A stretch of DNA of 22,376 nt from Discostella pseudostelligera (taxonomy: Eukaryota > Bacillariophyta > Thalassiosirophyceae > Thalassiosirales > Thalassiosiraceae), in NCBI GenBank assembly GCA_036940085.1, contig JALLBK010000207.1, positions 3,272-25,647 on the forward strand, given 5' to 3'. Positions 1,994-19,551 of this stretch are shown piece by piece; the stretch's first letter is position 1, and each line of letters opens with the position of its first letter. A program made the translations under genes and the position numbers. The notes beneath the pieces were generated by a model. It was not told where the DNA came from. It made no database searches and was given only the letters and a program-made list of their open reading frames with translations.

Positions 1994-4273
1994 ATGAATG
2001 CCGCCGCCGCCCCTACCGCCTCTACTACTACGCCCCTACGACGAGTAGGCTCGTCTCCCAGCACCAATGCATCCTCCAAAACTTATCTCCTCTTCTTATC
2101 AACCTGCATCTTTGCTACAATGACGACGAACTTTATACATCATCATTTGGCCGATCCACACAATATTCACAAGCGCGCGAATCTGAAATTTCACAATCAA
2201 TTGAGAATGAGTATGACATCATCTGACAATAACACCAGGATCAAGAAACGGTTGGGAGGAGGTGGAGGGCAACAATTAGAAAAAGAGGCGGAAGAAGTAG
2301 AAAAACAAGCAGTAGCTGAAGATGCAATTGCAGCGATAGTGGCGGTGGCGACGATTTCATCACCTCACAATAATATTCTGGGTAGCCCAACAGATCATTC
2401 ACCAGTAGAGGAAAAGGAGGAGGAGGAGATTCAGCAACAATCACAACCAACATCACCAGAACTGCAACACCAGCAACCACCACCACAACAACAGCAATCA
2501 CAGAAGCAGCAACCGCCGCCATTGCATGATTTATCGGGATTGAATTGTCATGATCACAATGGTCCCTCGAACGACCTTGCTGCCGAAATGGTCTATTGGC
2601 AAGATATTCCCAGTGATTCTACATTTAAATCACCTATTGGGAATGAGGTGGGACATCGAAAATATTTGACATTTGAACCCGATGGTACGTTGGTGTGTCG
2701 AGGGGAGAGGGGATATTACATGACTTTTCTTCTCATCAACTATCCAAACGACGACAGTTCACCTGACAAACATCTTGCATCTTGCTTGTTACCATTTTCA
2801 TCTAACTCTCTTTGCTCTTCGCATTAGGTGGTGGCTTCAACAATGCCCGCATGAACATGGAAACTATTGTCGTCATGGCCCACGCCATGGGTCGAACATT
2901 AGTCTTACCACCCTCCCAAAGTGTCTACCTACTTCAGAAAGACAAGAAGAAACAACGCGTGCACTTCTCCTTTGCTGATTTTTATCATATGGAGCAAATT
3001 GGATATGAACATGCCGGACTTGATATTATTAGTACCGAAGAATTTTTATTGACTGAAGCCATGACGGGACATTTGCGAAACAAAACGACGGGTGAGGTGG
3101 CATTTCCACCGGACAATCGTACCAATTGGGATGGTGTGGAAGATATGTTCCCATTGAAAGAGTATTTGCGGAATACTACCTTAACTCCACTAGATTGGGA
3201 TCCATCCGTATGTTTGGCTGCCTTCCCCTCCGACGCGGGACCACAGCATTTTGAGGAATTGAATGATATGTTCAATGAGGCATATAGTACGAAGCGATCG
3301 AGGAATGAATATATGGATAATCCAGTGGCAGTGGATGCATCCCCGGTCGATCGACTTCGGGAGGTAGTGTCTGGTTTGAATATTGGTCGATTGTGTATCT
3401 ATGATCAGAAGATGCAAGCGGCTCCGTTGGTGCATTTTATGTGTTATCATAAGATGAGAGTGCGGATGCTCACGCACTTTTATGCATTTTTGTTCTTTGA
3501 GGTACGTCCACAATATCGCTTCGTCCATTTCTTGGCAACCGAATCCAATCAATGAATCTCAATACATGCCTCTTTTGTTCGAAATACAGGATTGGCGACA
3601 TGACTTATGGTCCAAACGATTCGTCCGTGATCATCTGCGCTACGCCGATGAAATTCAATGTGCCGCAGCACGTGTCGTAGCCGCACTTCGTGAACGATCC
3701 CGCAGTCGAGGCAATATCAATGGAATATATGATTCCTTCCATATTCGACGGGGTGACTTTCAATACAAAGACATGTTAGTGGATGCCAATGCAATATATA
3801 ACAATGCCAAGGAGGAAATTCCAGACAATTCGACAGTGTTTGTTGCCACGGATCATATGGGGAAACCATTCTTCCAACCCCTGGCCGATCGATATGATTT
3901 GGTATTTCTTAAAGATTTTGAGAAGGAATTAGAGGGAGTGAATACCAACTTATACGGTATGATTGATCAACTCGTTGCGTCACGTGGACGAGTATTCTTC
4001 GGATGTATGCATTCTACCTTCACTGGATTTATTTTTCGTATGCGGGGCTACCATGCCCAAAGAGACAAGGCACTTGGCTGGGAACGGGGGGCATTGCTCA
4101 ATTCCTTTTATTACACGTCGGCTGGTGACAAGCGAAAGTATGAGCAGTACACTCCCATGCATCCACCCACCTATTCGAGAGAATTCCCGACAAGTTGGAG
4201 AGATATTGATAGAGGCATTGAAGAGTTGTTGTCTTCTACTCATAATGAAGAAGCAGTAGCAGTTGTCGAGTAA
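1994..4273 (+). CDS. O-fucosyltransferase family protein (type II membrane)
   Basis: Proposed exons are 1994-2684, 2828-3501 and 3590-4273, giving 682 aa. Both introns start GTACGT and end TAG or CAG, and the phases match. Splicing restores TFEPDG-GGFNNARMNMET (residues about 225-242), the conserved start of the GDP-fucose O-fucosyltransferase-like domain. HIRRGDF at about 506-512 is the conserved basic loop of this family, followed by FVATD and FFGCMHSTFTG. Residues 31-48 (YLLFLSTCIF...) form a probable signal anchor, so the enzyme should face the Golgi lumen. A Gln/Pro/Glu-rich stem (about 90-190) separates anchor and domain. An in-frame ATG at 1787 would add 69 basic residues. I prefer 1994 because the anchor then lies close to the N-terminus and the ATG has A at -3. 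The acceptor protein is unknown. The gene converges on the SNARE gene with a 135-nt gap. Confidence 0.85.
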
Positions 4274-5490: not shown

Positions 5491-5691
5491 GATATCGGCC
5501 GCACACAAGTTCGAGTTCGTGGAGGCGGAATCCAAAGTCAAAGTGGACCATGGCCATGGACGCCGCTGCCACAGTATGCCATCCCTCCCCCCTCATAGAC
5601 GCGCCCATGGAGCACTACATCAAGTCGAGGCGACACCATAAGAGAAATTACCTACAATCGTTCACAGTTTTTCAAACTCACTGCGGCCATC

Positions 5692-8600
5692 ATGCTAGAC
5701 AAACCGCAACAGAACGGACATCATGTTGTTCGAAGTCGGAGTGGCGGCGTCGGCAACGACGACGCGGGGGATGATCATCAACGCCTTGCCGATAATACCA
5801 ACAACGGCAGCAGCAGTGGAGGAACCTCAATTTTATCCGACCATGATGTGCTGCGAGATGTTTTCACGATGGCACGGAGTAGTAATGGTATCGGCAAAAT
5901 ATCTAGCCAGAATCACAATGACGATGAAGGGAATGATAATGATACAGCCGAGACATTATCAAATATCATTAGACCATTGCATTTGGAGGATATTAATAGC
6001 GGAACCATCGCCCGACTGGACGATGGTGGTATTGGAACAACGACATCTCAGCAACAACTACTTCTACCACAACCACCGCTCACTTCTCGTTTGGGCAAAC
6101 GAATTATGCAACAATATCAAGATCAGCAACAGATCATACAATCGAATACTACTATATCAGACGATCCGTACCATTCCTTTCAAACTCAGCAAAATCAGGG
6201 GGGAAACCATCCAGTTTCTGCATCGGCATCGCTACAACTACAACGACCCTATTCCGACTTTCTACGTCTACCCCCTCCTCCATCCATGAATCAAATGCAT
6301 TACCTTACCCATCTTCCACCTACTCCTTCACAATTAAATGAAAGTACAACCGATAATATTCAAGAGCTAGAACGGCAGCTACTACAGTATCATTTAGATC
6401 ATGAAGCATTACAACCCCATCACCAGCAGCAGCAATCATCAACATCGCACAACCACCACCTCTCAGTATCAGTACTCACCTCCAATTGCTTCACTCGGGT
6501 AATTGAACGAGATGCAACTTTAGGATTAGGAATGTCCTTGCGTGAATATGATGGATGTATATATGTACAAGCATTGATGCAACGAGATGGAACCTGGTTC
6601 AAAGAGAATGGCAGTGTTGGTGTTGGTAGTGCCACCGCTGGGAAGGAGGCTGGACCAGGAGCAAGGGTGGGGATACTACCCGGGGATCGTTTAATAGGAT
6701 TGAATGGACGTCCATTCCTACAGGGAAGGTTGGCAAGTGATTACAGAGATACAATTGGTAATGGAGGGAGTTATTTTTCAACGCACAAAAATCCATCTTC
6801 GGAGGAAGTCATGACGAGCGTGCGTGATGCAATCTCCAATGCAACAAGTCCGATGGTTCTGCACATTCAGAGACTCCCTGATCGAGAGAAGATGGTGGCT
6901 TTGCTTCAGAGATTACAAAACGAATCGAGAAATAGCAATGTGGATAAGCCTGTATCGAAGGGATCGTCTCATTTACGCTCGAATGGCACAAAGGCACTTC
7001 CCAGTCCAGCGAGAACAACCACATCCAAGCGGCCACGAGGCCCAATCATTCATAAATTCGCAATTGCATTATCCAACCGCAGCATAATACAAAAAGGAAA
7101 AGAAGAGCAAACAGTCACAATGCAACTGAGACTCCTAACCGATCGCACTCGACAATGGGAATCCAAACTGTCCTTTCGACTTCGCGCTCATGATTTCACC
7201 CTCCGTCCACAACTTGATGCTCGAGATGTCGAACAATCGTACTATGCATCCTTCATATCTGATGAGGGGGAATGCCCGCCTTTCTTCGATTATAAATTCA
7301 GCAAGAGCATCCGATCGTATGCTCCATCGACACCCATGATACAGGACTGGAGATTATCCCATCCTAATGGTCATGAGCATTCGCCGATACCTCGCGTGAG
7401 TAAGAAGGTATCAAAGGAAGCAGCAATCATGGCAGATTTGTATGCTGGATTAGACAAGGATGATGCCGAGATACAAGATTTTTTATTAGGTGGCAAGAGC
7501 AGTGCTTCGATTGGCGAGGGGGCCGCGTATCCTACTGCCAATACATTTACAGGGCCTGACGCAGCGGATATATTTATCCCACTTGTAGGTGTTCGAAAGG
7601 CAATGTGTGTACGTATCCTTAATAGCTTTTTAGACAATCGAAATCAGACGGCATTCACGATTTGGTGCTACGATGTGGAGAGCGGTCGGGAGTGGTATGC
7701 ACCAGTCCGGTACTACAATGACTTTAAGGACCTGCGGTTGGCACTACTGCGGTTGGATAAGACTATTGCCGATATTCCATTTCCATCGTTGGGGTGGGGC
7801 TTGTCGTTTTCGATAGAGACTGGTGAATCTGCCAAATCGAAAGAATTGCGACGCAATCAACTAGAGATATTCTTGAGGCAAGTATTCGCGCATGTGTATC
7901 GAGGTCGACTGCACCCGTATATCGCCGAGGTGGCAGTCCACCTACAAACATTTGTCGGATGCGATACAGTCCTCGGTGAGGGAGGTGATCGTTCTGGCTT
8001 GTCCCTATCGAAGCAAGTGGCCATCTCTGAATCGACGTACGGCAAGAGAATGCCGGATGCTAAATCAGAACCAGACGCCAATGCTCGGAGGCACTTGAAG
8101 CGCTCGATTATGCGATATGTGTATCGGTTGTTCTTGCTACCAGCAATCGAGAAGTTAATCTCGAACTTTATTAATGCTACCAGGGAAATCGTAATGTCAG
8201 ATGCATCATCAAATCAACAGTTCTCCGTTGGCAAGAGTGAAGCGAGAGCATCCATTGTGAAAATACGTGACTTCATTGATAAGTTGCAGGAGCTCATTCT
8301 GGATGGTTGCCACGACGACTTCATATCTATCGCCCAGCGACGTGACTTTGCTGCACTTGTGGACGACGATGACAATTTAAACCGCGACGATTTGTTCCGA
8401 GAGGCAGTTCGTGAACAAGTTGAGCTTGAGGTCTACGTTCCACTGAGGAGTACCATATCCAAGTATCTGGTGTATGCTTGGTTTAATGAAGATATGGAAA
8501 TGAAACACAAAATGAAGGTGAATATCTTTCTTCTTACTACCATTTGCCTATTATCGATACTCGGTTATCCTCACGTGATTTTTGCATAGGCATTGATTGA

Positions 8601-9246
8601 CAAGCCACAGTCGTACTTCAGAATCTCGAAAGAGCACAGAAGCCGTTCAGATTGGAAGTCGGTTTCAAGAATCTTAACGGAAGGAGTGTGAGTGAATTCA
8701 CCACCTATTGCTTTACCTTTTTGCTCTTATCGGACACTCATGCATTGACCTATCCTCATTTAACGTGCGCTACTTGCGACGAATCCAGCGGACGGAGCAC
8801 GTTGCCTTGTGTAAAGCTTCGTGCTGTTGTGGATGCGGCGAAAGAGATCAGTCAGTTAGATGCCGAAGAGCGAAGTGTATTCCCCGATGCAACATTTTTC
8901 GATGCAACCGTTGTGACCAAAGTGAAAGCACTCGGGGCAGATGACTTCCTACCAATCTTCATCTACTGCTTTGTTCAGGCGAAAATCGAACGCCCCTCGG
9001 CACTTTGTGAGCTGAAAGATCGTTTCATTCTCTGCAGTGCTCACACTTGTTGATATTCTCACTGCAAATATTCTACTTTCTGCTGCTTGATCAGGCGAAT
9101 TGCTTTCAATACTGTGTGATCCTGCAAAAATGAATGGCGAAGTAGGGTATTACCTAGCGACTTTCCATGCTGCACTCACACACATCCACGAACTTGACTT
9201 GACCGAAGCAAACAATGATCTTTCTATCATTTTTGACACTGAATAG
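5692..9246 (+). CDS. PDZ-PX-VPS9 domain protein, putative Rab5-type GEF
   Basis: Exons 5692-8517, 8590-8687, 8789-9006 and 9095-9246 join in phase to give 1097 aa; introns are 72, 101 and 88 nt. Residues 1-260 are low-complexity (Asn/Gln/Ser). Residues about 266-402 look like a PDZ domain (LGLGMSL loop, then GILPGDRLIGLNG). Residues about 627-756 look like a PX phosphoinositide-binding domain (RYYNDFKDLRLAL, then IPFPS). The C-terminus, from about 943, is a VPS9 domain. Splicing rebuilds GADDFLPIFIY (about 1024-1034), RPSALC-ELLSILCDP and NGEVGYYLATFHAA. The Asp and Tyr that catalyse exchange in Rabex-5/Vps9 therefore appear to be present. VPS9 proteins activate Rab5/Rab21-class GTPases on endosomes, and the PX domain would supply membrane targeting. 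A helical segment (about 800-830) precedes VPS9. The exact Rab target is unknown. Confidence 0.85.
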
Positions 9247-11583: not shown

Positions 11584-13674
11584 CTATTGTTTTTCACCAC
11601 AGCTTGAGCAAAACTTGGCAGCGATAGGGAGCTTTCCGCCGCATGAGATGCAAAATTTGTACCCCGCTTGAGTCGTATCACTACTTGACACATCCTCCTT
11701 AGGTTGCTGACGACTTGTATTTCCTTCTATTTCTGAGTTTTCGTCGGAAACAAGTGCTTCATCTATGTTGTCATTTAGTTGTGAAATCGCACCCTCACGG
11801 TGCCACCTCACTAACAAATCGCCAAGATCACCAAATCGATCCAAGATCGCATCACTAAATTCCGTATGTATGGATTGACTCAAAAACTCCGATGCCCCAA
11901 TGGACATTTTTAGTACTCCATCTCCTGACTTGGCAATATCATTGACGAGATCACTAACAGAACGTTGTTTGACTTCCACTGAATTCCCATTGACGATGTT
12001 ATTGCTGCTATCGTTTCTATCGGTGGACGTGTCACTACAACCAATCAATTCGCGAGACCATACTGTTCTCATCTGAAACTCCTTCGCTGCAACGACATCT
12101 TTGAAAAAGTCATCACCCACATGGACCCACCATGGACCCATCCCATCAGAAAATGCCTCGACTGCATTTTCGTCAATATCTTTCCAATCGAGTACTCTCT
12201 TCGAACTAGAGTCAGATTTCACATACGTTGCAGGTAGAGCCGGTATGTCATCGCCGTCACCACCCAAAAAGAATTCCTCAATATTCCTTCCATCTTGCTC
12301 GAGCCGTAACATCAACGATGCCACTGCCGCCTTGTAGACACGTGCATCCGGTTTCGATACTCCGACATCTTCGGCGCGCACTACAAAATCAAACAATCCC
12401 GATAGCTCTGATACTTGATTGGGATTGGAGTTTCCATCTGTAATTGCACCAATGTATATCTTATTGGAGAATGTTGCATCGGATGTTGTAGGTAGCGTCC
12501 GTAATTGTTGAAGTGTCGAAACGGCACATGGTACAAAATTCTTTGAGATGGATTCACACCGTGCCTTCATCCACACGTCGAAGGCCAAGTCGATTTGTTG
12601 TTCCAAGTCTTCCATCAGGGAGTTCGAAGGCAGAGCAGAACCGTTGTCGTCATTTGCTAGGATCAACGAGCGTATGGCATCTTTCCTCAATAATGTGAGA
12701 TACACCGGCTTCATTTTCGTCTTTTTCTCGACGCCAAAATCAGCTTGAGTATGCACCCCATCACCCTCGTTACTTTCCGATTTAGTAGTAGCTTGTAATA
12801 GCTCACTCTGTCCTACATTCTGTACACGATCCGCAGCGTCCTCATCATCAGAGTCTCTCAACTCGTCCACTGACTCCATCATCATCGTCCTCCTTGATAC
12901 ATCATAGTCCACCCCAGCATACCGTTCAGGATATTGTCGAAACAACTGTCCCATCCGATTCTCCGATCGTTCTTTGATACCAAATTCATGTAATAGATGA
13001 GATGCCAGTGCATCATTGGCATCAGAAATAGTTTCGGAAGTTTTCCATATTGTGTTGTCAAGATCAAATGTAATAACGCGTATTTCGGATCTTGATGACT
13101 CCAACGTTGTAGTAGTTGGTGACGTTGCGATAGTGGCTGTGAAGCCAATATCATTACTGATGATCTCGATGGTGTTCGATTGTGAGTTGAATTTGCCAGA
13201 CGACGTTTGTTGCATTGGAGCATAATACATTTTCTCCCACTTTTGAAGCTCCTCTTCCTCCTCTTCCGTAGGAGTCGGCATATTGTTACTCTCCATGCTA
13301 TTGAACGGTCTGGTGTAACTGAATCTAAAATAATTACAACGTCGATTTTCAAGAGGTCGGAATAATGATGAATGTATTTTGTTGTTTAGAGCGCAGCCTC
13401 CCCTATGATGATAATGTGTACTTATTTTGTGCCTAGTCTGAAATGCGGTAGCGGTAATAGTGGTGATACTTCTTCTTCGCAATGGGTCTATCCCGTGCAG
13501 TAGCAATAGCGATCGATGATGTTGCCCGTGTATTGTCGGGATACAGTGATGTCTCGTAGATCTCACGAAGCTCATGGAAGATGACGATGACGACGATGCC
13601 GAAGCAGGTGTCGATCGCCCCGCAAAAGCAGTTATGAAGAAAAAGAATATCAAGAAGTCTTTACTACTAATCAT
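11584..13674 (-). CDS. HAD-superfamily hydrolase with C-terminal zinc ribbon, probably plastid-targeted
   Basis: Single frame, 696 aa. HAD motif I is ITFDLDNTIW (about 203-212), with Asp nucleophile and general acid/base Asp. Motif II is AITDGNSN (about 411), motif III the Lys of VSKPDARVY (about 440), and motif IV VHVGDDFFKD (about 521). All catalytic positions are kept. The long stretch between motifs I and II suggests a cap domain plus an acidic insert. The last 25 residues form a zinc ribbon (CISCGGK followed by CSSCGEKQ, C-X2-C-X10-C-X2-C). The N-terminus MISSKDFLIFFFFITAFAG is a signal peptide ending in ITA-FAG, like the diatom ASA-FAP motif with Phe at +1, followed by a Ser/Arg/His-rich stretch typical of a transit peptide. 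Import into the plastid is therefore likely. The substrate is unknown; phosphatase or phosphoglycolate-like activity is possible. Confidence 0.82.
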   Translation of the reverse strand: MISSKDFLIFFFFITAFAGRSTPASASSSSSSSMSFVRSTRHHCIPTIHGQHHRSLLLLHGIDPLRRRSITTITATAFQTRHKISTHYHHRGGCALNNKIHSSLFRPLENRRCNYFRFSYTRPFNSMESNNMPTPTEEEEEELQKWEKMYYAPMQQTSSGKFNSQSNTIEIISNDIGFTATIATSPTTTTLESSRSEIRVITFDLDNTIWKTSETISDANDALASHLLHEFGIKERSENRMGQLFRQYPERYAGVDYDVSRRTMMMESVDELRDSDDEDAADRVQNVGQSELLQATTKSESNEGDGVHTQADFGVEKKTKMKPVYLTLLRKDAIRSLILANDDNGSALPSNSLMEDLEQQIDLAFDVWMKARCESISKNFVPCAVSTLQQLRTLPTTSDATFSNKIYIGAITDGNSNPNQVSELSGLFDFVVRAEDVGVSKPDARVYKAAVASLMLRLEQDGRNIEEFFLGGDGDDIPALPATYVKSDSSSKRVLDWKDIDENAVEAFSDGMGPWWVHVGDDFFKDVVAAKEFQMRTVWSRELIGCSDTSTDRNDSSNNIVNGNSVEVKQRSVSDLVNDIAKSGDGVLKMSIGASEFLSQSIHTEFSDAILDRFGDLGDLLVRWHREGAISQLNDNIDEALVSDENSEIEGNTSRQQPKEDVSSSDTTQAGYKFCISCGGKLPIAAKFCSSCGEKQ

Positions 13675-13912
13675 TGGATACTTTCCTTCCTAATCATTTA
13701 GTGGGTAGGGGTGTCTAGAGTGGTAGTAAGTAGTGGGGTCGACGCCATCACCGTTATCTCTACTATCGTACTAGAGTTACAGTCATCCGTCACCGTCATG
13801 GTCGATCGGCGGTCGGCGTCCATGTCAATGAGCCAGAGTGGTGAATCTTCCGTCTGTCTGGCGTCACGACCGTCGGATCTTTGATGCTAGGAGTATCTTT
13901 GGTGCGTCAGAA

Positions 13913-14124: not shown

Positions 14125-14609
14125 ATGGCGAGCGACGACGAAATTATTGAGGGGTCGGGAGGGCGCATTTCTCTTGACTCCGACGACAACAACAACAACA
14201 AGCGCGGTGCAGAGACACCAACGACGTCGGCATCGGCATCGAACCCGAGGCAGTGTGGGTATCTGCAGCGCAGTCCTAGGGCCCCTCCATCACCTCCTCA
14301 CAACGACGACGATGACGGCGGGGGTGGCGATGAGTATGCTCCTCTCAATATTGACTTCAATTCATCCAGCGACGACGCCAACAACAATCGAATCGTCACC
14401 ACAACAACAAATACAGCAGCTGCGGCGGCATCATCAACATCAGCCGCGACGACAACCTTTGATCGCGCATTACTCATAGCATCCCTCCGTCCCGGCACCA
14501 ACATTGACGGCTTGTCCGACTATGAAATCCTACGACTACAGAAAATTCAAAGAAATGAGGCCAGATTGGCCAGTTTGGGATTGTGTGGTATTACAAGTAA
14601 GCCCACAAG

Positions 14610-14642
<33 letters not shown>

Positions 14643-17600
14643 CATCGGTGGAAAAGGCAGTACAGATTATGTACCATTCCAAACCCCACCTCCTCCTATG
14701 GAACCCGAGTCTGAGCCTGATTCTGAGCCTGAAACAAGCAAATGTAGTTCCCCTGGTCCTGGTTGGACCTACCCTCCTGATGAAAATTTCTTCCGACATT
14801 GGACATCTCCTACACGAAAGATTTCATTTCTGACACATCCAGCGGCGTGTCAATTTGAAGAATTGCGGAATCAATTTGGCAACGATGAATTCCAAGCATG
14901 GGAAGAGTATCGGAAACTTAATCCTTTCCTAGCAAGTACAGTTGTGTCTCCAGAAAAATACGATGCTGGTTCTCGATGTGGCAGAGGATTGACAACAACC
15001 AAAGCTGCTGCCCCTGCTCAGAATGCCATCAAAAGAGGACTATCCAACGAAGCAGCAGTCAGTTGTAATTCAAACAATACTCTTTGTTTCATGTGCAAAG
15101 ATGGGGGAGGTAAGTTGACAATATCGGCTGTGCGCCCTGTCCTGGACCCCGAGACTTGATTGCTCACACTTTTGTTTTCCATCTTCTCTATTCATTATTT
15201 CAGACCTGGTACTTTGCGACACTTGCCCGAAGGCATTCCACATGATATGCCACATTCCTAGGCTTCATGATACCCCCCCAGGAAAATGGAGTTGCTGCGA
15301 ATGTAAAGCAAGCTTGTTCACGAGGAAACAACGCTGTGGCGAATGCATGGAGTGTCTTCGACCAAACTGTGGCGAATGCGCTGCCTGCAAGGGAAAGAAG
15401 CAATTTGGAGGTGATGGTAGATACGGAAGCGCATGCAAGTTCAGGAAATGCAAGTTTATGCGTTATGCTCCTCCCGAAAGCATTTCAAAGTCTCCGTCGT
15501 TGAAAAGTAATTCCGAAAGTGTTGGTCTGAAGACCAAGTACCTTCCGGGTGTGGGATGGAAGGCAAGGCGTGTTTTCGAGAGTGGCCAGTACGTCTGCCA
15601 TTGGATATCTCCAACGAGACAGATTGAGTTCAAGAGGCATCTTGCAGCCTGCAACTTTGAACGGCTAAGGATTAAGTTTGGCTCTGACGAGGTTAAGGCT
15701 TGGGAAAAGTATAGGGCGCAATGTACTCGAAAGGGAAACGTCACACGGGTTGTTTCTCCTCAAGATTATGATGCTAAGTCAAAGAGTGGATCAACTGCAT
15801 CAAGGGCGCGTCAATATTCTGGAGGAGCACTGTTATCAACGCCACGCAAAAATTCACCTGATGTACTGCAATTGAAGGAGGAGGACGATCACACATTCCA
15901 AATTGCTGAAGCCAAGAATGATATTTCGAAGTCGCCGTCGTTGGGAACAAACTCTCTTGGTCCGACGAAGAACCCTCCAGGTCTGGGATGGAAGTTAAAG
16001 CCTGTTTGCGAGAGTGGATATGTTAAAACTTATTGGATATCCCCAGTGAGACAGATTGAGTTCAGGAGACACAAGGAAGCCTGCAACTTTGAACGGCTAC
16101 GGATTCAGTTTGGCTCTGACGAGGTCGAGGCTTGGGAAGAGTATCGAAGGAGAACTACTAGAAAAGGGATAAGGACACGCGTTGTATCTCCGCAAAATCA
16201 TGATGCTCAGTCAAAGAGTGTATTAACTAGGGCATCTAGGGCACGTCGACTTTCTGAAAGAACAATATCATCAAAGCCGCGCAAAATATCATCAGATGGG
16301 CAGCAACTGCGGAGGAAGGAGGACAATCTCATACCCCGACATAATGCTGCCAAGAATGATATTTCAAAGTCTCCGTCATTGGGAACGAACTCTCTTGGTC
16401 CGAAGAAGAACCCTCCAGGTCCGGGATGGGAGTCAAGCCTTGTTCACGAGAGTAGTCAGGTTGTCACTCATTGGATATCTCCAGTGAGACGGATTGAGTT
16501 CAAGAGGCATACTGCAGCTTGCAAATTTGAAAAGCTTAGGAATGAGTTCGGCTCTGACGAGGTCAAGGCTTGGGAAGAGTTTCGAAAGCGATATTATACT
16601 GTTGATAGGAAAAGTCATCCATCATTTGTTGTATCTCCGCAAAATCATGATGCTCATCCAAAAGGTGGGGTAGTACATAAGGCGGGCCTGAACAAGAAGC
16701 GACAGCGCTCTAGGGATCATGCCGTTTGTCTCGCTCCTGTGTCAAGAAAAAGACCTCGTCGTTCCACAACGAACAATTGTAGAGCCACTTCGAAATGCAA
16801 CAGAGGCGTCACTTTAGCCAATGATAAAGAGAGAGAGTCATTTGAAAGCGACGACTTTTGTTATAGTTGCGATGATGGCGGAGGTAAGCTTGAAGTTTCA
16901 CACCACACTTCATCGCTACCACTTATTGCTCACTGTTGTTGTGCGTCAACTATTTTAGACTTGGTTCTTTGCGATTTTTGCCCGAAGGCGTTCCATCTAG
17001 AGTGCCATATTCCGAAGCTTCATGTCATCCCACAAGGAGAATGGAGGTGCTGCGAGTGTTCCGCGGGCTTGTTCAAGAGGAAACAACGTTGTGGCTGTTG
17101 TGATGCTTGTCTAAGATCAGATGCTTGCGGGGAATGCGCTGCCTGTAAAACCAAGCAACGCTTTGGGGGTACTCTTAAGCGGGGTGGAAAGCAGTGTGAA
17201 CTGAGGCAGTGCAGAGATAAGCGCTACGCCGCCCCAGAGACCTTGCCAACCTGCAATGTATCCCGTTCTCCGAACACTAGTGGCACATCGATATGCAACA
17301 AAGGGCGAGCCACAACTAAACGCAAGGGTCAACGACGGCCGGTCCCCAAATCCATCGTCAAGTTCAGTGGCGGCCAGCATCACGAATCACGCTTTATAGC
17401 CTCTCCATTCCAGTCGTATTCTCAACTAGGCCCTGATCGTGGACTAAATAGTGGTGAAATCAAAATGATTTGCCTGAGGCCTGCAAAAAATATGTCATTT
17501 TTTCGCCAATGTTTCTCAAAACGAATTCTCCGTATTGAGAAGAGCCTCCGCGATGTACCCCCCGAAAAGTTTGTTACTGAAGTAAGTCATGAAATGATGA

Positions 17601-19551
17601 CTTTGCCGACTTTGCCGACTTCACTACTTTTGAGCGTCTAATTTACCTCGTTGCCGGGCTTAGAATGGAGCGAAGTATTTTCTCGCCTCTTCAAAGCTGA
17701 ATAATGAGAAGAGTGGAGGGAAAGTGAACGGGAAATATTTCGCTACCGATAGGAAGATTGACCTGTTATACATCGGCCTGAATAGCCTTGATACCGAGCT
17801 TGAAAAGTTATGTGCCTTCTCTTCATTGGCACCGGAGAAAGCTGTTGCAAGGCTTGGTGAGATTATATTACCTACCGAATCGCTTTCCATTATGCATGAT
17901 CTGACCTTTGAAAATTCATCCTTGTACACAAATAGGTCATCTCCAAAGTGATGCTCAGAATGTCCTGTACATTAAACCTCATGAAATAGAACAGATCGAA
18001 GAAAAAGGACACGAGGGTGAGTCGGCTTGTTTCTGCACCTCGTATTTCTCTTCGTGGTGAATGAGGTTTGCTCACACTGTTTCTATTTGCTATGTCAAGG
18101 CTGTGGATTCTTTCCAGATGGTTATTTTGATGGAAAGGTTGGTGGAAAGTTTGATTCAGTGCAAGTCCGCATTCTTGGGCCAACACTCGGCATGGCGAAG
18201 GGAATGTTGCTAAGAAAACCTGGGATCTCTCGCATTCAGTTACCATCGAGCATGTTCAAGGCCCCTCCTAGCCATATTTGCAATGACAGCTTTGCAGCAG
18301 TGATAATCAAAAATGTTTTTCCGAGTGAAGAAAACAAGCAACTGGGGCGCTTTTTGGATCCTGTGGTGGATGCTCGCGATAGCTGGACAGCGAACGACAA
18401 AAGGCCTCTGAGTGACATGTACCAGCGAATGCTGGTCGGGTATGGAGTCAAAAAATCAGTTGTTGATGAGTATGCACAGTCCGCAAGGAATCCAATTAAG
18501 TTGAAACACGGTCACTTCAAAGGGTGTGTCGATCCTACTGGAGCACTTCCAGAGAATAAAGTGTTTATCTCTGGATATACCACGGACGCCAGCAATAAAC
18601 GCGTACTCTTTGGCGAAGCTCATTCAAGGATATTCTTAAGCCGAAGTCCGTGTTTAGCGCCTTCAGATGCGAAAATGGTGTCTGTCGTCGGGAGCAAACC
18701 GGAAGAGATGTCAATGGATGATTGGAATATATTATGTAGTTATGATTTTGGTACCATTATTTTCCCACAGTCATTAGTTTCGATGACATGCGTCATTGCA
18801 GGTGAGAGTTTCAATCCATTTTGTTTTTTTCTATGGTTTGGTGTTCCTCACCACTTTTACGCATTGTTTTTAGATGGCGATCTCGATGGCGATGGTAAGA
18901 AGATTGATATGATGTAGGCCGTTCACATTCTCCACCTGAATCCTCACATTCATCGTTGATAATTTCTTGACAGATTATTTTGTATTATGGGATGAAAGGC
19001 TAATTCGCCAATTAAGTCATTGCAAGGACGAACGCACATCGAAGGCGAGAGCCTTGCTCCATAAACTTGAGCTGCCAAAAAAGGTTCAGCATTCTGTGAA
19101 CAAAGCGACGGAATTTTCACCAATCGCAGACAGTGAATGGCTTAGTAAAGCGCAGGATTTGATGCTGTGAGTGCGTGAGAGTGAAATTATTTTGCTTGCA
19201 TAACAAGAGCTCTCATTGTTCACTCTTCATATGGCAGTGATTTTCCCACGCAACTAAAAGCCTCCGATATGGTAAGCAAGCTCTACAAATTATGTGTAGA
19301 TGCATCAAAACGGGATGACGACTATGTTGATCTATGCGACGAAGATGCGGTGGCGTATGCAAGGTGAGTTCTGCTTCTTTGTTCAATGTCTCATTCAATG
19401 ACTTATTAAATAACACTCCTTTATGGCTGGTAGCGCCTACAAGGACGCAATGGACATTCAAAAACATGGTGGGCAAATCCACCTTCCACAACACCTCCAC
19501 ATCAATCTTCCCAAGGGAAGTCGACATTTACTGACATCGTATTCAGAATAG
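14125..19551 (+). CDS. Chromatin-reader / RNA-dependent RNA polymerase fusion (4 GW-SP repeats, 2 PHD, 2 CXXC, RdRP)
   Basis: Ten exons: 14125-15109, 15204-16883, 16959-17581, 17664-17856, 17936-18016, 18100-18801, 18874-18894, 18974-19166, 19238-19363, 19434-19551. All nine introns are GT-AG (70-94 nt), phases agree, and the sum is 1573 codons. Order: Ser run 163-173; GW-SP repeat A (about 212-281); PHD1 (320-362; CFMC, then [15 protein letters not shown] and CCEC); CXXC1 (371-415; CGEC to KQFGG); repeats B, C, D (Trp 447, 591, 737); PHD2 (881-922); CXXC2 (931-977; KQRFGG); RdRP (about 1050-1565). RdRP marks are [23 protein letters not shown], the catalytic DLDGD at 1424-1428 followed by [10 protein letters not shown], and a C-terminal [16 protein letters not shown] fingers read histone tails, CXXC fingers bind unmethylated CpG, and cellular RdRPs make dsRNA for small-RNA silencing. 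The start is the first in-frame ATG (AACATGG). The linker between CXXC2 and RdRP lies within one exon, which argues for a single protein. The RdRP region seems shorter than plant RDR proteins. Confidence 0.85.
14611..14643 (+). repeat. (AGT)10 microsatellite coding for poly-Ser
   Basis: Ten AGT units followed by AGC, in frame in the reader-RdRP gene, encoding Ser 163-173. Copy-number change here would alter only the length of a disordered linker. Confidence 0.85.
15481..16670 (+). repeat. Three tandem units of about 440 nt (GW-SP repeats B, C, D)
   Basis: Coding tandem repeat inside the reader-RdRP gene. Units begin near 15481, 15922 and 16360 (periods about 441 and 438 nt). Each carries a lead-in ([14 protein letters not shown] in C and D), then PPGxGW, WISPVRxIEFKRH, ACxFExLRxxFGSDEVxAWEE and VVSPQNHDA. 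Units C and D are nearly identical in long nucleotide stretches, pointing to recent duplication or gene conversion. A fourth, more diverged copy (A) lies upstream at about 14755-14970, before PHD1. Confidence 0.88.
16884..16958 (+). other. In-frame 75-nt intron inside PHD2
   Basis: GTAAGC donor and TTTTAG acceptor. It lies at the same codon and phase as the 94-nt intron 15110-15203 in PHD1 (after DGG, phase 1). Unlike that intron, it has no stop and is a multiple of three, so unspliced RNA would stay open and insert 25 residues into the zinc-binding core of PHD2. Splicing restores [10 protein letters not shown], so removal is the functional reading. Confidence 0.75.
18874..18894 (+). other. 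21-nt microexon carrying the RdRP catalytic motif
   Basis: Flanked by a TTTTTAG acceptor and a GTAAGA donor, with phase-1 junctions on both sides. With the flanking split codons it encodes DGDLDGD-D, the metal-binding active site of cellular RdRPs, joining CVIA to YFVLWDERL. Skipping it would keep the frame but delete the catalytic Asp triad. Confidence 0.8.

Follow-up and report, generated by a model that had tools for sequence, protein, structure and literature searches.

Silencing RNA-dependent RNA polymerases (RdRPs) must somehow choose their template loci, a central question that is still open. In well-known systems, the choice is shared among several partner proteins. Plant RDR2 depends on Pol IV and partner readers to reach chromatin, and Rdp1 of S. 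pombe, which acts within RDRC, also relies on partner proteins. Here, we describe a gene of the diatom Discostella pseudostelligera in which readers and polymerase form a single chain. It lies in a window of 22,376 nucleotides (assembly GCA_036940085.1, contig JALLBK010000207.1, positions 3,272 to 25,647, forward strand), and all coordinates below refer to that whole stretch of DNA. The protein combines PHD, CXXC, and MBD-like domains with an RdRP core. It is likely a self-targeting polymerase that docks on chromatin and copies local transcripts into double-stranded RNA (dsRNA) for silencing, a reading to which we assign a probability of roughly 0.6.

The combination can already be seen in databases, where precomputed Pfam lists show PHD, CXXC, and RdRP domains together, yet as far as we searched it is undescribed. 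Among the papers listed from an open library of 5.4 million, a scope outside of which lie most subscription papers and all supplements, no title or abstract start described a PHD-CXXC-RdRP fusion; the original prediction, too, knew of no described protein with this architecture. A review on marine stramenopiles reports RdRPs in diatoms and contains no occurrence of CXXC, MBD, or PHD (PMC3145265).

Gene structure and domain order

The spliced model of the fusion gene has ten exons between 14125 and 19551, amounting to 4722 nucleotides with the stop and encoding 1573 amino acids (aa). Its nine introns were placed by rule; all are GT-AG, with sizes of 70 to 94 nucleotides, and among four splice combinations tried only this one was open and in phase. 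The original prediction had proposed the same ten-exon, 1573-codon model, with coordinates that were correct in every one checked, and its domain counts (four GW-SP repeats, two PHD fingers, two CXXC fingers, and an RdRP) held up in Pfam and repeat hidden Markov model (HMM) searches. The three Pfam families that it had singled out for searching all exceeded their curated cut-offs in the spliced protein: RdRP (PF05183) scored 73.8 bits against 23.8 over aa 1306-1556, zf-CXXC (PF02008) 49.9 bits against 26.5 in two stretches, and PHD (PF00628) 38.9 bits against 24, also in two stretches. The features, all on the plus strand, are as follows.

14125..19551, +, whole gene: MBD-like / PHD-CXXC / three MBD-like / PHD-CXXC / RdRP; sole in-phase model of four tried; Pfam
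14752..14928, +, MBD-like repeat 1 (aa 210-268); repeat HMM
15085..15304, +, PHD finger 1 (aa 321-362), with intron 1 interrupting it at DGG/D; Pfam PF00628, nearest solved CHD4, PHF12, AIRE
15320..15463, +, CXXC finger 1 (aa 368-415); Pfam PF02008, closest solved match DNMT1 (33 bits)
15545..15721, +, MBD-like repeat 2 (aa 443-501); repeat HMM and fold model
15977..16153, +, MBD-like repeat 3 (aa 587-645); repeat HMM
16415..16591, +, MBD-like repeat 4 (aa 733-791); repeat HMM
16859..17062, +, PHD finger 2 (aa 881-923), where intron 2 falls at the same codon as intron 1 does in PHD finger 1; Pfam
17081..17233, +, CXXC finger 2 (aa 930-980); second Pfam stretch, solved matches include the CpG-binding protein 3qmb
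17492..19533, +, RdRP core (aa 1067-1568), spread over exons 3-10; family profile, Pfam part aa 1306-1556, fold of a relative
18801..18893, +, active-site motif DGDLDGD (aa 1422-1428), nearly all of it on the 21-nucleotide exon 18874-18894

The two halves meet within one exon. As originally claimed, exon 16959-17581 (aa 889-1096) holds the second CXXC finger (aa 930-980) as well as aa 1067, where the conserved RdRP region begins, with no stop between them; its 208 codons are open, for which p is about 4e-5 in random sequence of the same composition read in one frame. An argument could be made that two adjacent genes or transcripts, a PHD-CXXC protein and an RdRP that starts independently near 17465-17492, were joined by the gene model only. 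The introns were indeed placed by rule and not from reads of D. pseudostelligera, and in-frame ATGs at aa 1058 and 1067 come just before the RdRP core. We nevertheless regard a two-gene origin as very improbable, given the open exon shared by the second CXXC finger and the RdRP start, together with the relatives described below.

The fusion in related diatoms

Our homologue searches reveal the same combination in a complete transcript. P0017 (1126 aa) has an MMETSP header that reads "Transcript" and "type:complete," MMETSP presumably being a transcriptome project, and its single open reading frame (ORF) carries PHD in two stretches, CXXC, and RdRP. P0003 (1699 residues, from a jgi contig of 7427 nucleotides) contains repeats, PHD, CXXC, and RdRP, and is partial, beginning without a Met. 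We infer that P0003 is one uninterrupted, unspliced frame because other jgi proteins continue into introns, so that this source seems unspliced: P0019 and P0027 run into an intron just after DGDLDGD, at the site of intron 7 of the fusion gene, and P0030 does so just before that motif, at the site of intron 6. On another jgi contig, 3627 nucleotides long, P0024 joins three repeats to the RdRP.

Gene models from other assemblies have the same order of PHD, CXXC, and RdRP, as in Thalassiosira sp. AJA248-18 (P0002 and P0007), T. exigua (P0005), Conticribra weissflogii (P0018), and T. profunda (P0004, on a 3.6-Mb contig). A D. pseudostelligera gene model, P0001, agrees in both its domains and their order. 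When 22 of the 23 homologues P0001-P0023 were scanned with Pfam (P0016 was left out), the three domains occurred together at E <= 0.01 in eight, and six of these homologues passed all three cut-offs (P0001, P0003, P0004, P0007, P0017, and P0018). CXXC and PHD were below cut-off in P0002, as was CXXC in P0005, while P0010 has PHD, CXXC, and a truncated RdRP that is seen by the family profile alone.

The transcript ORF P0017, the protein P0003, and the related gene models are three lines of support that do not rely on the spliced model above; we therefore reject an accident of gene modeling as the origin of the fusion and take the joining of readers and RdRP, which recurs in other centric diatoms, to be real. 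Separate transcripts or an assembly break, which the original prediction named as refuting it, appear in none of these relatives, and the domain order that it proposed to look for in other diatoms was found in gene models of Discostella, Thalassiosira, and Conticribra. Both the architecture and the silencing type of the RdRP are supported by the relative's transcript, conservation, fold, and trees.

We also considered and rejected a bacterial or viral origin. No named relative among the matches listed was bacterial or viral, many matches being without a name. A scan of IMG/VR with the RdRP alignment returned 110 pattern matches and no relative, and a search of phage DNA with exon 3 gave no match.

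The RdRP core

The stretch ADGDLDGDDYF, which begins at aa 1421, and the Pfam match bear out the claim of a cellular RdRP with a DLDGD active site. DLDGD is intact in the fusion protein and in 20 of 23 homologues. Furthermore, eight aligned RdRP parts all share the KG motif, the DP of DPT/DPS, and R-x-P; the P0001 gene model is missing 32 residues that include the KG motif, which we take as an annotation gap. A structural model of a relative is predicted to have the core fold of RDR and QDE-1 and matches RDR2 and QDE-1. Because the profile search of the RdRP part against the PDB used full-length rows, PHD matches predominated in it, and we kept from it the RDR2 and QDE-1 rows alone. Skipping of exon 18874-18894, whose 21 nucleotides are frame-neutral, would leave an in-frame protein without the active site.

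The chromatin readers

The nearest solved chains of the PHD fingers are CHD4, PHF12, AIRE, TRIM66, TRIM24, and BHC80. PHD fingers of the CHD4, AIRE, TRIM24, and BHC80 type are readers of H3 unmethylated at K4 (H3K4me0). PDB titles name unmodified H3 for TRIM66 (6ieu) and H3(1-10)K4 for TRIM24 (3o37). Both CXXC fingers have the cysteine pattern of their family and resemble DNMT1 and CFP1. KFGG and KQ are residues of CpG-binding CXXC fingers; the first finger has QFGG at the former site, the second has RFGG, and homologue P0004 has KFGG together with KQ. Elsewhere in the assembly, contig C76 (L034 1865-4096) has a frame of 743 aa with two strong CXXC fingers (72 bits) in which KFGG is kept.

These resemblances also bear on the idea that the readers steer the RdRP to active promoters with non-methylated CpG, not to silent DNA, with gene tuning as the result. 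We find this quite improbable, as the PHD fingers match the type that reads H3K4me0, a state that active promoters are without. What speaks for it is that the CXXC protein CFP1 targets non-methylated CpG-rich promoters (PMC6868398).

The four GW-SP repeats are MBD-like by profile similarity. Pfam MBD (PF01429) had no match in the spliced protein and none in 26 repeats at E up to 1. In the PDB profile search, a photosystem chain came first (E 0.17), followed by eight MBD1 and MBD2 chains (E 0.18-0.53), and DUF7028 gave weak matches in 5 of 26 repeats (best 0.0069). We do not call the repeats methyl-CpG readers, because of a missing Asp to which we return below. The repeat is present in 13 of 48 proteins, of which 12 are rows of the reader-fused group in the 46-row tree described below and the other, P0010, is within the same group in the 26-row tree. 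Repeats of this kind also occur apart from any RdRP match: contig C236 of the same genome (L035 3064-5730) has an 888-aa frame with two of them and a DUF7028 match below cut-off, adjoining frames that by eye resemble a DEAH helicase.

Identity to P0001 is 86-98% in the PHD, CXXC, and MBD-like domains and 68-84% in the six linkers, so that these domains are more conserved than the linkers. The first 209 residues have 158 identities in 195 positions. The RdRP part is 85% identical; 430 of 459 aligned residues agree, and 43 more have no aligned counterpart owing to gaps in the P0001 model.

One polymerase lineage with different readers

Other relatives carry other readers. P0008, with the locus name CCRYP, which we take to be Cyclotella cryptica, combines PHD, chromo, and bromo domains with an RdRP. 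P0009 has an MBD over cut-off and an RdRP, and P0020 has an MBD just under cut-off, a weak PDZ, and an RdRP. A 26-row RdRP tree places the MBD-RdRPs as the sister group of 13 rows that have PHD or GW-SP parts, all 15 being united at 98/98. The corresponding group in a 46-row tree has 28 rows (support 100/98), for 11 of which the N-terminal domains come from the database's own list alone. The larger tree left out P0016 and P0010 (long branch, half length) and P0035 (the window's own frame). From a second batch of 23 proteins, 22 entered it and 9 were read; the others, mostly fragments, had their N-terminal parts scanned for the repeat only. Trees were midpoint-rooted for drawing only.

The assembly has at least three RdRP loci, and the two others fall outside the fused clade, C24 with P0013 and C643 with P0015. 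The reader-fused RdRPs are thus one lineage, set apart in the trees from these other polymerases of the genome. Its simplest reading would be an MBD-RdRP ancestor that later gained PHD-CXXC. For T. pseudonana, published counts of RdRPs disagree, with three (PMC3155517) or two (PMC3145265). The nearest relative of C24 (L036 1446-4187), P0013, carries a PDZ domain, P0011 carries KOW, and relatives of the C643 type (L037), inspected by eye, have an insertion that follows the active site. There may be three classes of diatom RdRP, with different N-terminal modules. P0021, an RdRP of Seminavis robusta, is named "autoimmune regulator" in one source, and Pfam shows no PHD in it.

Cellular RdRPs often amplify small interfering RNAs (siRNAs) from mRNAs. 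The fusion protein could be such a post-transcriptional amplifier in the cytoplasm or around the nucleus, its readers serving another task, for example, regulation or complex assembly, and induced gene silencing does work in the diatom P. tricornutum (PMC4247016). Yet its MBD-like, PHD, and CXXC domains are conserved above the linkers, and chromatin readers of other kinds occur in relatives (chromo and bromo domains in P0008, an MBD in P0009), so we consider a purely post-transcriptional amplifier unlikely.

A proposed self-targeting polymerase

We propose that the protein would enter the nucleus by means of basic runs at aa 826-849 and 1009-1015. Judging from their nearest solved relatives, the PHD fingers would read H3 tails without K4 methylation and the CXXC fingers would bind non-methylated CpG; the MBD-like repeats may give extra contacts with chromatin or nucleic acid. 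Once docked, the RdRP would make nearby RNA double-stranded. The dsRNA would be diced by the genome's Dicer-like protein and used with its Argonaute-like proteins, and the outcome would be transcriptional silencing of transposon-like DNA. Candidates for this machinery are found in the genome: a 1331-aa frame on C729 combines two RNase III domains with a PAZ match that stays under its cut-off, C293 holds pieces of Piwi exons, none of which reaches the cut-off alone, and five contigs of the assembly have candidate DNA-methylase matches.

The protein may thus choose loci by CpG or histone state, as the original prediction inferred. From the pairing of H3K4me0-type PHD with CXXC, we would expect it to dock on CpG DNA that is neither active promoter nor methylated and so to initiate silencing where new insertions have landed. 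A more speculative extension, possible but doubtful, is a one-protein coincidence detector of naive invading DNA, in which H3K4me0 and non-methylated CpG would lead to docking, dsRNA, de novo small-RNA silencing with CpG methylation, and finally release of the CXXC fingers; splicing of the frame-neutral exon of the catalytic loop could switch off the polymerase and keep the reader.

Several observations weigh against a self-targeting polymerase. The first CXXC finger has GS at the KQ position of DNMT1, and the second has KQ one residue closer to its cysteine. The Asp on the strand that precedes the SP motif is present in five of five MBDs and in 0 of 26 repeats. The model of P0004 has a mean predicted local distance difference test (pLDDT) score of 60.6 and scores of about 38-47 in CXXC, which gives the CXXC fingers no fold support. 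Repeats of C. cryptica are highly methylated, mostly at CpG (PMC5124317), so a reader of non-methylated CpG would avoid them unless it acted before methylation. Finally, P0018 has DLVGD, P0005 is without the motif, and P0010 ends upstream of it; some family members may be inactive or misannotated.

The sequences of P0018 and P0005, together with a motif exon that can be skipped without a frame shift, would also fit a nuclear fusion protein whose RdRP part no longer polymerizes and acts as a binder of RNA or single-stranded DNA, or as a scaffold through which chromatin readers reach transcripts. Such a protein is rather unlikely here, given that DLDGD is intact in it and in most homologues, that KG, DP, and R-x-P are invariant in the aligned parts, and that the core fold is predicted with confidence in a relative.

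A self-targeting polymerase would have implications for how locus choice is studied. With recruiter and polymerase in one chain, the link from reader to dsRNA could be severed by single-domain mutations, and locus choice could be tested in one protein. One RdRP lineage with different readers (MBD, PHD-CXXC, and PHD-chromo-bromo) resembles a natural series of targeting experiments. Diatoms have CpG-methylated repeats and small RNAs (PMC5124317, PMC4247016), and the fusion protein would be a concrete candidate for the initiator of their nuclear silencing.

Neighboring genes

The rest of the window holds other kinds of genes. A GDP-fucose protein O-fucosyltransferase at 2806-4273 is in two overlapping frames, probably two exons. 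At 5599-9053, a PX domain with a weak PDZ is followed by a VPS9-like frame just under cut-off, perhaps one sorting protein. A 701-aa HAD-like hydrolase frame at 11584-13689, on the minus strand, is divergent from the RdRP gene.

Comparison with known systems

Among the closest counterparts is plant RDR2 of the Pol IV pathway (maize and Arabidopsis), which resembles the fusion protein in its catalytic motif and, from the model of a relative, probably in its RdRP core fold, with a structural match that spans RDR2 residues 290 to 931. Nuclear dsRNA synthesis for transcriptional silencing is also the role that we propose for the fusion protein, which differs in having the readers in the same chain; the chain of fungal QDE-1, likewise, has no chromatin readers. 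From the reader side, the CXXC fingers are of the type found in DNMT1, KDM2B, MLL, and CFP1, with DNMT1 the best solved match of the first finger, and KDM2 also combines CXXC with PHD. The effector in those proteins, however, is a methylase, a demethylase, a histone methylase, or none, and not an RdRP. MBD proteins such as MeCP2, MBD2, and AtMBD6 are like the repeats in profile and in a first, though weak, structural match, whereas the Asp conserved in five MBDs is missing from all 26 repeats. Finally, the RDRs of oomycetes and Dictyostelium (PMC4791657) are also cellular RdRPs with an extra N-terminal domain, which in their case is a DEAD-box helicase in place of chromatin readers.
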